Of a stretch of DNA of 64,000 nt, positions 45,695-53,802 are shown one piece after another (positions within the stretch are counted from its first letter, which is position 1; every line of letters starts with the position of its first letter). The position numbers and the translations under genes are program-made. The DNA lies in assembly GCA_018242585.1 (NCBI GenBank), contig JAFEBQ010000020.1:37513-101512 (forward strand), written 5' to 3'. The notes beneath the pieces were generated by a model that did no database searches, was not told the DNA's origin, and saw only the letters and a program-made list of their open reading frames with translations. This stretch comes from Planctomycetota bacterium. Its GTDB lineage: Bacteria; Planctomycetota; Planctomycetia; Pirellulales; PNKZ01.

Positions 45695-45726
45695 TTGACT
45701 CTGTAGTATACTCCAGGCTGTAAAAC
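45695..45726 (+). promoter_or_regulatory. MerR-type promoter with long spacer and operator
   Basis: A -35 box TTGACT at 45695-45700 and a -10-like TAAAAC at 45721-45726 are separated by 20 bases, longer than the usual 17. The spacer holds the near-perfect palindrome CTGTAGTATACTCCAG (45701-45716), mismatched only at the base next to each outer CTG/CAG. This is the layout of MerR-family activated promoters, where the regulator untwists an over-long spacer. It directs the operon starting at 45761. Confidence 0.85.
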
Positions 45727-45760
45727 AGGCTCACCATCGCGGCTTGCGAAGGGACATGGG

Positions 45761-46168
45761 ATGAAGACCATGAGAATCGGCGAGGTCGCCAAACTCTCGG
45801 GAACCGGGATCGAGACGATCCGATTCTATGAGCGGGAAGGACTGCTGCTGGAGCCGGAACGCCGCCCGTCCGGCTACCGGCAGTACGACGAGGCGAGCGT
45901 CGAACGATTGAACTACATCAGACGGGCCAAGGAACTCGGCTTCACGCTGGCCGAGATCCGGGAGCTTCTGCAGTTGTCGTTCGTCGCCTCGCACTGCGAA
46001 CACATTCGCCAGCGGGCCGAGACAAAGATCACCGACATCGAACAGAAGATACGCAGCCTGCGACAAATGAAACGGTCGCTCGGCAAGATCGTGGAACATT
46101 GCCGAACGAAGGGCGCAACTGAGGATTGCCCGCTGGTTCACCAGGTGAAGAAGTGGCCGGCGGAATAA
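45761..46168 (+). CDS. MerR-family metal-type regulator
   Basis: A 135-residue activator/repressor. The winged-helix MRIGEVAKLSGTGIETIRFY is followed by REGLLLEPERRPSGYRQY, then a dimerisation coiled coil. Three cysteines, C79 (SHCE), C114 (EHCR) and C123 (DCPL), match in spacing those that bind metal in MerR (Hg) and ZntR (Zn). The CPL end is closer to mercury MerR. It sits 13 bases before the NO reductase gene and downstream of a MerR-type promoter, so it probably autoregulates the operon. The inducer could be a metal or a thiol-reactive nitrogen species; this is inference. Confidence 0.9.
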   Translation: MKTMRIGEVAKLSGTGIETIRFYEREGLLLEPERRPSGYRQYDEASVERLNYIRRAKELGFTLAEIRELLQLSFVASHCEHIRQRAETKITDIEQKIRSLRQMKRSLGKIVEHCRTKGATEDCPLVHQVKKWPAE

Positions 46169-46181
46169 CAGAGAGGATGCC

Positions 46182-48410
46182 ATGCGACGACTCTGGATCG
46201 CCTTTACCCTTGTGATGGTCGTTTCCTTTCTGATCCTCGGCTGGATCGGCACTCGCATCTATCAGGAGATGCCGCCACTGCCCGCTAAGGTCGTGTCCAG
46301 CGATGGTGCGGTGCTGATTGACGACGGCGAAATCCAAGCGGGGCAAAACGTCTGGCAGTCGCTCGGCGGGATGGAAGTCGGCTCGGTGTGGGGCCACGGC
46401 AGCTATGTTGCCCCGGACTGGACGGCGGATTGGCTACACCGGGAAGCGACTTTCATTCTCGACCACTGGGCGACGACGGAGTTTGGCGCGGAATACGCCA
46501 AGCTCGACGGCGAACGGCAGGCCCAGCTTCAAGGCCGCTTGGCGAAAGTAATGAGGACGAACACCTACGATCCGGGCACGAAGACGATCACTCTGCCGCC
46601 GATTCGCGCCGAGGCGTTTCAGGCGAATCTCAAACACTACTCGGACGTGTTCGCCAACGGCAAAGCCGAGTACGCGATCCCCAAGGATGCCGTCTCCGAT
46701 CCCGACCGGCTAAAGAAGCTGTCCGCCTTCTTCTTTTGGACTTCGTGGGCGGCATCCACCAACCGCGCCAATGCCGAGATTAGCTATACGCACAACTGGC
46801 CGTATGAGCCGCTGGTCGGGAACCGGGCCACGGGCGAAACGGTCGTCTGGACCGGCATGAGCATCATCATGCTCTTGGCGGGCATCTCGGCAATGGTGTG
46901 GTGGCACGCCGCCCGCAAAAGCGAAGAGGAAACGGCGGCGCTCCCCGAAGCCGATCCATTGGGCCAATGGGTTGCCACGCCATCGCAGCGGGCAACCATC
47001 AAGTATTTCTGGGTCGTGGCGGCACTCATTTTGTTGCAGATGTTGCTCGGCGTCGTGACGGCCCACTATGGCGTCGAGGGAGACGGGTTCTACGGCATCC
47101 CGCTCTCGAAGTGGCTGCCCTACAGCGTCAGTCGGACGTGGCACGTTCAGATCGGTCTGTTCTGGATTGCGACCGCGTGGCTGGCGGCGGGCTTGTTCAT
47201 CGGCCCACTCGTGAGCGAACACGAGCCGAAGGGCCAACGGCTTGGCGTCAACATCCTCTTTCTGGCACTTCTGATTGTCGTCGCGGGATCGCTGACCGGG
47301 CAATGGTTGAGTGTGCAAAACAAGCTGTCGGACAACGTGTCGTTCTACTTCGGCCACCAGGGATACGAGTACGTCGATCTGGGGCGGGTGTGGCAACTCG
47401 CTCTGTTCGCTGGCTTGTTGCTCTGGTTCGCCTTGATGGTTCGAGTATTACTCCCCGCTCTGCGGCGGACTGGCGAGCAGAAGCAACTGGTAACGCTCCT
47501 GGCCGTGGCGAGCGCCGCCATCGCCCTGTTCTACGGCGCCGGTCTGACTTGGGGCCAACACTCCCACCTGTCGATCGTTGAATACTGGCGCTGGTGGGTC
47601 GTCCACCTGTGGGTGGAGGGCTTCTTCGAGGTCTTCGCCACGACGGTCATCGCCTTCTTCTTCATGCGATTGGGACTGATCGGACCCGGCATCGCGGCGG
47701 CGGCGGCATTGCTCTCGGCGACGATCTTCCTGTCGGGGGGCATCATCGGAACGTGTCACCACCTGTATTTCTCTGGCACGCCCACGGTCGCCCTGGCTTG
47801 GGGATCGGTGTTCAGCGCCCTCGAAGTCGTGCCACTGACGCTCGTGGGTTTCGACGCGATGGAAGACCTGCGGCGGTCTCGGCTCACGCCCTGGGTGCGG
47901 CGGTACAAGTGGCCGATCTACTTCTTCGTCTCCGTGGCGTTTTGGAACATGATCGGGGCCGGGCTGTTCGGCTTCATGATTAACCCGCCCATCGCCCTGT
48001 ACTACATGCAGGGCCTCAACACGACGCCGTTGCACGGTCACGCCGCCCTGTTCGGTGTCTATGGCATGCTCGGCATCGGGCTGATGCTCGTCTGCCTCCG
48101 CGCGTTGATTCCGGGACAAGAGTGGAAAGATGGGGGGTTAAGGTTTTCGTTTTGGGCGCTCAACGGGGGATTGATGGCGATGTGTCTCCTGAGCCTGTTG
48201 CCGGTCGGTCTGATGCAGACCTGGGCTTCGGTGGAGCACGGCTACTGGTACGCGCGGAGCCCCGAGTTCATGCAGACGCCCGTAATGCAAAACCTCCGCT
48301 GGCTACGAGTGCCGGGCGATACCGTGTTTTTTCTCGGCGCCGTCGCCCTGGTTTGGTTCGTGGTGGGGTTGAAAACAGGGCATTCGTTTCGCAAGACGGA
48401 GACGCGATGA
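46182..48410 (+). CDS. norZ: Quinol-dependent nitric oxide reductase
   Basis: A 742-residue inner-membrane qNOR that reduces NO to N2O with quinol electrons. The N-terminal extension after the first helix (about 30-220, with GQNVWQSLGGMEVGSVWGHG) is typical of the quinol type, replacing NorC. Metal ligands are visible: H321 (TWHVQ, haem b), H475 with E479 (HLWVEGFFE), H526/H527 (GTCHH) for the non-haem iron, and H618/H620 (LHGHAALFG) for the haems. About 14 membrane helices. GAGAGG lies before the ATG. Second gene of the MerR operon. Confidence 0.95.
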   Translation: MRRLWIAFTLVMVVSFLILGWIGTRIYQEMPPLPAKVVSSDGAVLIDDGEIQAGQNVWQSLGGMEVGSVWGHGSYVAPDWTADWLHREATFILDHWATTEFGAEYAKLDGERQAQLQGRLAKVMRTNTYDPGTKTITLPPIRAEAFQANLKHYSDVFANGKAEYAIPKDAVSDPDRLKKLSAFFFWTSWAASTNRANAEISYTHNWPYEPLVGNRATGETVVWTGMSIIMLLAGISAMVWWHAARKSEEETAALPEADPLGQWVATPSQRATIKYFWVVAALILLQMLLGVVTAHYGVEGDGFYGIPLSKWLPYSVSRTWHVQIGLFWIATAWLAAGLFIGPLVSEHEPKGQRLGVNILFLALLIVVAGSLTGQWLSVQNKLSDNVSFYFGHQGYEYVDLGRVWQLALFAGLLLWFALMVRVLLPALRRTGEQKQLVTLLAVASAAIALFYGAGLTWGQHSHLSIVEYWRWWVVHLWVEGFFEVFATTVIAFFFMRLGLIGPGIAAAAALLSATIFLSGGIIGTCHHLYFSGTPTVALAWGSVFSALEVVPLTLVGFDAMEDLRRSRLTPWVRRYKWPIYFFVSVAFWNMIGAGLFGFMINPPIALYYMQGLNTTPLHGHAALFGVYGMLGIGLMLVCLRALIPGQEWKDGGLRFSFWALNGGLMAMCLLSLLPVGLMQTWASVEHGYWYARSPEFMQTPVMQNLRWLRVPGDTVFFLGAVALVWFVVGLKTGHSFRKTETR

Positions 48411-48607
48411 CCACGTGCGACCTGGATACGTCGGTCCCCGATTGGGTGATCGAGCATCCCGAGACATGGCCGTGCTTTCAGCGACTGGGCATCGACTACT
48501 CTTGCGGTGGTAAGTCATTGGCGTATGCGTGTCGAGAGCGAGGCTTGGATGCCGCGATGGTGCTGCAAGAACTGCTTCGTTGCCTGAACAACCCGGGGCA
48601 CACCTGA
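48407..48607 (+). CDS. Stand-alone DUF542 (ScdA/RIC N-domain) protein
   Basis: A 66-residue protein matching only the N-terminal domain of the ScdA/YtfE (RIC) iron-sulfur repair proteins. LGIDYSCGGKSLAYACRERG (residues 27-46) is the family motif, with S32 where many members have a second cysteine; other cysteines are C4, C23, C33, C42 and C59. The hemerythrin di-iron domain of full RIC is absent. The ATG overlaps the norZ stop by four bases, indicating translational coupling and a nitrosative-stress role. Confidence 0.88.
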   Translation: MTTCDLDTSVPDWVIEHPETWPCFQRLGIDYSCGGKSLAYACRERGLDAAMVLQELLRCLNNPGHT

Positions 48608-48719
48608 CGAGACAATTTCAACCAAGGAAGCAAGCGCCGGTTAAATCCTCACGCACGGCCCGGCCAGGTCATCGACGTTCGCAGCCTGTTCGGTCATCAC
48701 ATTCTTCCTCGATCAGCGA

Positions 48720-49049
48720 TTACTTGGCAGGCAATGCTTCGACGAACGCCAGCGCGCGATCGAGCCAGGCGCGCAATTGCCGATCGGTGTCGACGCCCTC
48801 GGGCTCGACCAGCGCCCAGCCGCGCATCGTCCGGCCCCCCACGTCGAATGGTTTGACGTGCGGCTCGGCGAGCGCGGCCGCGTGCTCGCCGGGCCCCACG
48901 CGCGCGATCAGCGACACGTGCCAAACGCACACCAGCATGTTGCCGTTGAGCAGGAACACCAGCCCGCCGAACATGCGCTTTTCGACCACGCCGCGCGTGG
49001 CTCGCAACTGCTGTCGCACGCGCTCGGCAAGTGATTCGCTGAACGGCAT
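48720..49049 (-). CDS. TfoX N-terminal-domain protein
   Basis: A 109-residue protein matching the TfoX/YjhX-like N-domain: LAERVRQQLRATRGVVEKRM, then FGGLVFLLNGNMLVCVW and the C-terminal GWALVEPEGVDTDRQLRAW. The C-domain of competence regulator TfoX is absent, as in most stand-alone members, whose function is unknown. It follows the rhamnulokinase gene on the same strand by 28 bases, so it may share its transcript. Confidence 0.87.
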   Translation of the reverse strand: MPFSESLAERVRQQLRATRGVVEKRMFGGLVFLLNGNMLVCVWHVSLIARVGPGEHAAALAEPHVKPFDVGGRTMRGWALVEPEGVDTDRQLRAWLDRALAFVEALPAK

Positions 49050-52417: not shown

Positions 52418-53260
52418 ATGAGTCAAGCGGCGTTTCACCTTACGTCAATCCAACCACTCGTAAAACTGACTGTGTTTCCTCCCCCTGCCACCAACGAGAC
52501 CGCCGCGAAAGCCCCCCCAACCAATGACGGCCGGGTGGTTCCCACCGTGCCGACGCCCGCTTCGGCTGGGGTTGATTTGGGCTGGCTGGCGGCCGAAAGC
52601 GCCCTGCTCGAAGGGGCCACCCCGCGTGACATCGTCGCCTGGGCGGTGAAGCACTTCCACCCGGGCCTGACGATGGCCACGGCCTTTGGCCCCGAGGGAA
52701 TGGTCATCATCCATTACCTGGCCGAGATCGATCGCACCGTGCCGGTCTTTAACCTGGACACCGGTTATCAATTCAAGGAAACGCTCGAACTCCGCGACCG
52801 CGTCGCCCAGCGGTACGGCATTGATGTCGAACTGAAGCAGCCCGAGTCGACCGTGACCGAGTACGAAGCGGCGAACGGCGGGCCGCTGTACAAGTCGAAT
52901 CCGGACCAATGCTGCTTCGACCGCAAGATTCGCGTTTTGTATCAGGCGGCCGCCGGCCAGAAAGCCTGGATGAGTGGCATCCGCCGCGACCAGAGCAACG
53001 ACCGAGCCGTGGCGCCGATTGTCGGCTGGGACAAGAAATTCGGTCTGGTCAAAATCAGCCCGCTAGCTAACTGGACCAAGCAGGACGTTTGGCGGCTGAT
53101 CACCAAGGAAGACATTCCGTACAACGCGCTGCACGACCAGGGCTACACCAGCATTGGCTGCTGGCCCTGCACTCGGGCCGTGATGTTCGGCGAAGACGAA
53201 CGCGCCGGCCGCTGGAGCGGCAGCGCCAAGACCGAATGCGGCCTGCATGTGCAAGGATGA
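52418..53260 (+). CDS. cysH: Assimilatory adenylyl-sulfate reductase (CysH family)
   Basis: A 280-residue reductase that converts APS (or PAPS) to sulfite with thioredoxin. NLDTGYQFKETLEL begins the nucleotide domain. The four cysteines C165/C166 (DQCCF) and C248/C251 (GCWPC) are those that bind a 4Fe-4S cluster in APS-type enzymes, and the C-terminus ECGLH has the catalytic cysteine. The first 40 or so residues are non-conserved. The Fe-S motif predicts APS specificity. Rrf2 regulator follows. Confidence 0.93.
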   Translation: MSQAAFHLTSIQPLVKLTVFPPPATNETAAKAPPTNDGRVVPTVPTPASAGVDLGWLAAESALLEGATPRDIVAWAVKHFHPGLTMATAFGPEGMVIIHYLAEIDRTVPVFNLDTGYQFKETLELRDRVAQRYGIDVELKQPESTVTEYEAANGGPLYKSNPDQCCFDRKIRVLYQAAAGQKAWMSGIRRDQSNDRAVAPIVGWDKKFGLVKISPLANWTKQDVWRLITKEDIPYNALHDQGYTSIGCWPCTRAVMFGEDERAGRWSGSAKTECGLHVQG

Positions 53261-53376: not shown

Positions 53377-53802
53377 ATGAAAGTCTCCGCCAAAACCGAA
53401 TACGCTTGTCTGGCGATGCTCGAATTGGCGGCCAGCTATGGCTCGGGCCAGCCGGTGCAGATTCGTCGCATTGCCGATCGGCATGGCATCCCGTCCCGGT
53501 TTCTGGTGCAGATTCTGCTGCAACTCAAGGGGTCGGGCTTCGTCAACAGCACGCGCGGCGCCGCTGGCGGTTACGAGCTGGTCCGCTCGCCGCGGCAAAT
53601 CACCTTGGCCGACGTCGTTAGCGCCATCGAAGGCCCCGACGAATCGTCGTCGGCCGTCAATTCCGACGCCGCTGCCGCCCGGGTGCTGCGGAATTGTTGG
53701 CAGGAAGTGACGGCCGCTGAAAAACGCATGCTGGCCGACATCTCGCTTTCGGATCTAGCCGAAAGGGTTCGCCGTCAGGCGGAACCGATGTATTATATCT
53801 GA
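53377..53802 (+). CDS. Rrf2-family transcriptional regulator
   Basis: A 141-residue winged-helix regulator. MKVSAKTEYACLAMLELA is the family start, QIRRIADRHGIPSRFLVQIL the DNA-binding helices, and GFVNSTRGAAGGYELVRSPRQI the wing. The three closely spaced cysteines that hold an Fe-S cluster in IscR/NsrR are missing (only C10 and C109), so it is more like CymR, a cysteine-metabolism regulator. Its position after cysH supports control of sulfate assimilation, which is inference. It may bind the inverted repeat at 52342. Confidence 0.9.
   Translation: MKVSAKTEYACLAMLELAASYGSGQPVQIRRIADRHGIPSRFLVQILLQLKGSGFVNSTRGAAGGYELVRSPRQITLADVVSAIEGPDESSSAVNSDAAAARVLRNCWQEVTAAEKRMLADISLSDLAERVRRQAEPMYYI

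Follow-up and report, generated by a model that had tools for sequence, protein, structure and literature searches.

Which signal switches on a nitric oxide (NO) reductase operon that is headed by a regulator of the metal-responsive MerR type? The question is raised by a window of 64,000 nucleotides, the whole stretch of planctomycete DNA analyzed here, in which a merR gene is closely followed by genes for a quinol-dependent NO reductase (qNOR) and a small DUF542 protein. In bacteria, the response to NO is as a rule attributed to one of the regulators NsrR, NorR, DNR/NnrR or HcpR. The comparative reconstruction of NO regulons published in 2005 contains no MerR (PMC1274295), and our search, which covered open-access full text, did not turn up any account of an NO reductase operon controlled by a MerR. 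The occurrence of a Corynebacterium MerR together with NorB (PMC4289026) was considered as a precedent and rejected, since the two are separate proteins in a proteome and do not represent an operon. The parts of the system are all of known kinds; their combination, and the clade of regulators described below, are new within the literature searched.

The operon and its promoter

The regulator (P0001; 45761-46168, plus strand; 135 residues) exhibits the domains of the MerR family, with Pfam scores of 79.5 bits for MerR_1 (cutoff 21.6) and 63.9 bits for MerR-DNA-bind (cutoff 25.4) and no Rrf2 domain found by Pfam, and carries three cysteines, Cys79, Cys114 and Cys123, as well as His81. After a gap of 13 bases follows norB (46182-48410, plus strand), the predicted product of which is a single-chain qNOR of 742 residues, with a NorB_cytochrome_c-like domain (PF22085, 231 bits) fused to COX1 (PF00115, 200 bits) and with a whole-length match to the solved qNORs (830 bits to PDB entry 9wyl). 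The third gene (48407-48607, plus strand) shares 4 bases (ATGA) with the stop region of norB and encodes a 66-residue DUF542 protein (Pfam ScdA_N, 46 bits; 30.9 bits against TIGR03652, for which the cutoff is 204.7). The tight packing of the three genes, the overlap and the three cysteines had been described in an earlier note on this DNA, and all of them are present. What had been missed is the relic of a fourth operon gene, a cupin (48641-48694, plus strand; LNPHARPGQVIDVRSL), which emerges from a read-out of the frame and has lost its start codon. In relatives this cupin is intact, comprises 110-116 residues and follows qNOR or DUF542 (L003, L031, L033, L034, L038, L043 and the Rrf2-linked L008). 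DUF542 is likewise encoded directly beside qNOR in L003, L031, L033, L034, L035, L039 and L044, and is found at some, not all, of the MerR-qNOR loci; a metal-resistance gene was found in the operon at none of the inspected qNOR loci. A TfoX_N-domain gene is located near the cassette in the window (48720-49049, minus strand), and such genes lie within a few kb of it, on either side, at several loci of the window's subgroup, as if co-travelling (L031, 8397-8723; L033, 4189-4515; L034, 8677-9003; L144, 914-1240).

Upstream of merR, direct reading of the sequence yields a predicted MerR-type promoter/operator (45695-45726, plus strand) comprising (i) the −35 box TTGACT (45695-45700), (ii) a 20-base spacer (45701-45720) containing CTGTAGTATACTCCAG (45701-45716), an imperfect dyad centered 8 bases into the spacer, and (iii) the −10 box TAAAAC (45721-45726), which is a poor match. 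The MerR-type promoter with its 20-base spacer and palindrome, as claimed earlier, can thus be read in all its parts. A generic sigma-70 promoter/terminator scan of the window returned no match, since it allowed only spacers of 16-18 bases and the one present here spans 20. With up to three mismatches permitted, the operator occurs once in the window (none expected in shuffled sequences) and once in the 5.57-Mb home genome (none for the reversed-pattern control), so that a search of that genome for a regulon returned, as its sole site, the operon's own. In a published comparison of metal-type MerRs, spacers comprise 19-20 bases and the dyad center lies 8 bases from the −35 box for MerR/HMRTR and 7 bases for CueR/CadR-PbrR (PMC5045206). 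Hence, the 20-base spacer and the center located 8 bases in, both kept in 24 loci, identify the window operator as one of the MerR family with the MerR/HMRTR geometry.

Conservation of gene order and operator

A scan of GTDB genomes with the MerR alignment returned 80 loci, the best 18 of which are all from Planctomycetota (52-83% identity). At 16 of these 18 loci a qNOR that is 67-90% identical is encoded directly downstream, the exceptions being L037, which falls inside the regulator clade defined below, and L047, which falls outside. Among 398 genomes of the class, a qNOR starts just downstream of each of the best 15 MerR matches (≥194 bits), surviving as a remnant at one of them (L134), and of none of the next 15 (≤192 bits). 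After de-duplication the clade comprises 25 distinct loci, all from Planctomycetota, with qNOR starting directly downstream of merR in 23 of them and DUF542 and/or the cupin often following; a search of the phylum with qNOR found the merR-qNOR-DUF542 trio in two genomes other than that of the window. Gene order and operator are thus conserved in about 25 distinct planctomycete loci, and the possibility, allowed for in the earlier note, that the arrangement is unique to this genome does not hold.

The two clade loci without an intact qNOR start are L134 and L037. At L134 (1946-2517) merR, operator and cupin are intact and qNOR is represented by a 53-residue remnant, which looks like the result of a deletion. 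At L037 (5001-8348) the same regulator and operator occur without qNOR, merR being accompanied by the cupin, a membrane-fusion protein and a MacB/DevC-like ABC permease. A membrane-fusion protein also follows the cupin at L003, which, taken together with L037, suggests that the regulon of some species includes an exporter. No such MerR was found at the sampled qNOR loci outside the clade set, and annotated plasmids hold only metal-type MerRs of less than 60% identity. Outside Planctomycetota no MerR-qNOR pair was found by a scan that demanded two exact peptide patterns, for which reason absence there is not proven.

The operator leaves a sharp footprint in 24 of the 25 distinct clade loci. When these 24 are aligned on TTGAC, some 32 bases from −35 to −10 are near-invariant (TTGACTCTGTAGTATNNTNC...TANAAT), and the flanks, that is, the 25 bases upstream and the bases downstream, are close to random. 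At the remaining locus, L144, the operator has diverged (TTGACTTTGGAGTATACTCGAGAGTGTAAGAT). Two subtypes can be distinguished, ACTCCAG, typical of the Gemmata-like subgroup to which the window belongs, and GGTACGGAG, typical of the remaining loci; according to our reading of the alignment the dyad center lies 8 bases past −35 in both. Several sister MerRs of the metal type possess an operator nearly identical to that of the qNOR-linked clade, and a phylum-wide operator scan recovered, along with the merR-qNOR loci, the sister metal MerR loci L122 and L125 and a divergent MerR locus, L119. At both L122 and L125 the regulator precedes a protein, that of L122 being an unusual fusion of a CopZ-type zinc-binding domain with MerT and HMA domains. 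The matches at L117, L118 and L120 have no merR nearby and were discarded as stray.

Ancestry of the regulator and its probable link to NO stress

Maximum-likelihood analysis of 67 MerRs places the 17 qNOR-linked regulators and that of L037 in one clade (support 100/99). It is nested among mercury and heavy-metal MerRs whose neighbors encode MerT, CopZ-type zinc/copper domains, HMA, Cus/Czc efflux systems and P-type ATPases (recognized in part by eye and in part by Pfam). As the bootstrap is not fully settled and the deeper forks are open, we make use of the clade alone and leave the deeper branching aside. The home genome contains no other relative of P0001 (E 1e-3). Cys79, Cys114 and Cys123 align with the Hg-MerR cysteines of PDB entry 5crl and are invariant in all 18 clade members. 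Comparison of these 18 with 45 other MerRs indicates that His81 is nearly clade-specific (17/18 versus 1/45) and that Ser106 (18/18 versus 6/45) and Leu125 (18/18 versus 2/45) likewise mark the clade. The invariant triad and the clade-marking residues argue that the sensor site is used and that its tuning has changed; the residues do not say for what. The assignment of P0001 as a metal/thiol-type MerR in the earlier note was thus right and can be sharpened: the cysteines are the triad of Hg-MerR, and it is mercury and heavy-metal genes that follow the sister regulators.

The genes of the operon are linked to NO and none of them is a metal-resistance gene. In a tree of the qNORs, MerR-linked enzymes and enzymes linked to Rrf2/NsrR-like regulators interleave, with L039 (MerR) grouping with L007 (Rrf2; support 99/92) and L008 (Rrf2) with L003, L038 and L035 (MerR; support 100/99), which indicates that one and the same enzyme has changed its regulator. 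L008 combines an Rrf2 regulator and qNOR with the very cupin encoded at MerR-linked loci. The regulator of L007 has NsrR as its best NCBIfam model (113 bits, below the cutoff of 182) and possesses three cysteines, C-x6-C-x5-C, presumably located where the cluster is bound in NsrR. This exchange of NsrR-like and MerR regulators supports the NO link independently and constitutes the best available evidence that both would answer to NO stress.

The home genome also encodes a complete protein of the RIC/YtfE type, with an Rrf2 regulator as its neighbor (L115, 281-1956; G000 contig C7), so that a system of the Rrf2 type seems to operate there alongside the MerR. The L115 Rrf2 has two cysteines (CPLGL...CPLH), a type that is also located beside qNOR at L008, L010 and L012. 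In the same genome Cu-NirK was not detected, NirS is represented only by a weak partial NirS-type match inside a 1722-residue frame, and NosZ only by short matches. We therefore rejected the designation 'denitrification operon', and the qNOR of the window looks like an enzyme of detoxification rather than a member of a denitrification chain. Another Rrf2 regulator in the window (53377-53802, plus strand), devoid of the cluster cysteines, directly follows a phosphoadenylyl-sulfate-reductase-like gene (52418-53260, recognized by eye) and probably controls sulfur assimilation.

Candidate mechanism, inducers and known systems

We consider it reasonably probable that a mercury-type MerR has been repurposed to activate an NO-detoxification operon, with NO or NO-freed metal being read at its thiolate site. 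Since a MerR derived from metal sensors precedes qNOR in at least 23 loci and retains a conserved DNA target, we infer that NO stress has probably become its signal through rewiring. A MerR of the Hg(II)/heavy-metal branch would then have been recruited to drive qNOR, giving rise to a self-contained planctomycete NO-detoxification operon. Most likely, a MerR dimer would reside on the 22-base operator between −35 and −10 boxes that are 20 bases apart and would hold RNA polymerase inactive. Upon modification or filling of its Cys79-Cys114-Cys123 site, to which His81 is close in the sequence, the regulator would untwist the DNA and switch on merR-qNOR-DUF542(-cupin). Activation by untwisting of an over-long spacer is established for the MerR family, and it is from this known biology that we infer untwisting here. 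The signal, most likely NO stress, might be read at the thiolate site directly, by nitrosation or by nitrosylation of a bound metal or iron-sulfur center, or indirectly, through zinc, copper or another metal ion freed by NO. qNOR would reduce NO to N2O, and DUF542 and the cupin would probably help in the repair of iron centers or in iron handling.

For SoxR, a member of the MerR family, it has been described that NO forms a dinitrosyl-iron complex at the cluster and activates transcription (PMC4601167). In Salmonella, NO mobilizes zinc, zinc efflux is needed for NO resistance, and ZntR has been predicted to respond to NO-mobilized zinc; zinc/ZntR behavior under NO did not, however, amount to a clean induction (PMC6094482), which counts against the NO reading, and the poor −10 box of the window likewise counts against the explanation we prefer. 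It is tempting to go further and to speculate that the clade constitutes a new class of NO-sensing MerR, in which the three Hg-type cysteines and His81 bind a metal or iron-sulfur NO receptor, a sensor of mercury having turned into one dedicated to NO independently of SoxR, NsrR, NorR and DNR, but we regard this as doubtful. Furthermore, the presence at L037 of regulator and operator without qNOR, along with the cupin and an efflux-type ABC exporter, implies that the signal might be broader than NO.

Given the Hg-MerR triad and sister regulators that, judged by context, respond to metals, a metal could remain the inducer, and the present sequence evidence does not discriminate between a direct sensing of NO and the sensing of a metal. 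A plain metal response, in which Hg(II) or another soft metal is sensed, NO is not, and the qNOR operon is induced as part of metal stress, would be sensible insofar as soft metals damage iron-sulfur and respiratory enzymes. It would agree with the exactness of the cysteine triad, with the best NCBIfam score being that to Hg MerR (126 bits), with an operator that is nearly that of sister MerRs preceding MerT/CopZ/HMA genes, and with the absence from the home genome of any other MerR close to P0001. We nonetheless judge it unlikely: the score lies under the Hg-MerR cutoff of 151, the home genome has no MerA above cutoff, metal-resistance genes are missing from the operon at every inspected qNOR locus, the same qNOR(-cupin) units have Rrf2/NsrR-like regulators at other loci, and clade-specific changes (H81, S106, L125) have occurred beside the triad.

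A general thiol, electrophile or redox sensor akin to NmlR, responding to reactive nitrogen, aldehyde and disulfide stress with NO as one of several inducers, would account for the coupling of the regulator to cupin and exporter without qNOR at L037, and regulators of carbonyl and nitrosative stress do exist among MerR-like proteins, as far as the citation of a review in PMC4289026 indicates. Yet P0001 scores far under the NmlR cutoff (42 versus 175 bits) and its three invariant cysteines have metal-triad spacing rather than representing a single reactive cysteine, which makes such a sensor quite improbable. That merR adjoins qNOR by chance or hitch-hiking, and does not control it, is close to refuted by the 25 distinct loci, the conserved promoter just upstream of merR, the 13-base gap in the window and the strict separation, by score, of MerRs with and without a linked qNOR, even though the cassette has a patchy distribution of the kind often seen for moved DNA.

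If the repurposing of a mercury-type MerR for NO detoxification is correct, the known NO regulators would be joined by a further class, metal-type MerRs that have an NO reductase operon of their own in many planctomycetes and that genome annotation files under mercury or heavy-metal regulation. The system would also offer a natural setting in which to test how a site for soft metals is turned into a sensor of NO or NO-metal, with the clade, its Hg-type sisters, similar operators and diagnostic residues all to hand.

When compared with known systems, P0001 shares fold family, length and the positions of the cysteine triad with Hg(II)-responsive MerR (TIGR02051; PDB entries 5crl and 4ua1), and thus has the three-cysteine Hg site; the Hg-MerR operator type (22 bases, center 8 bases from −35, spacer of 19-20 bases) is like that of the window. 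It differs in the clade-specific His81/Ser106/Leu125 and in having an NO reductase operon as its target; its score against TIGR02051, the best among NCBIfam models, is 125.9 bits at an equivalog cutoff of 150.85, and merA, merT and merP are absent from the window operon and the inspected relatives. SoxR likewise is a MerR-family protein with a cysteine-based sensor, and is an NO-reactive activator (PMC4601167), but its Cys-X2-Cys-X-Cys-X5-Cys motif holding the [2Fe-2S] cluster is absent from P0001, which has only C79, C114 and C123 and scores 43.1 bits against the SoxR model (cutoff 116.9). NmlR has the family and the theme of nitrosative stress in common with P0001 (42.1 bits, cutoff 175), and their targets differ. 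The NsrR/Rrf2-controlled operons of L007 and L008 comprise the same qNOR lineage with an adjacent regulator and, in L008, the same cupin, whereas that regulator belongs to the Rrf2 family and is unrelated to the window MerR. RIC/YtfE/ScdA proteins share DUF542 (ScdA_N) with the 66-residue window protein, which is devoid of their hemerythrin half. Finally, the window qNOR differs from the solved qNORs (PDB entries 9wyl, 28pn and 6fwf) in its planctomycete clade and operon context, and keeps the HH and other active-site segments in the alignment with them.
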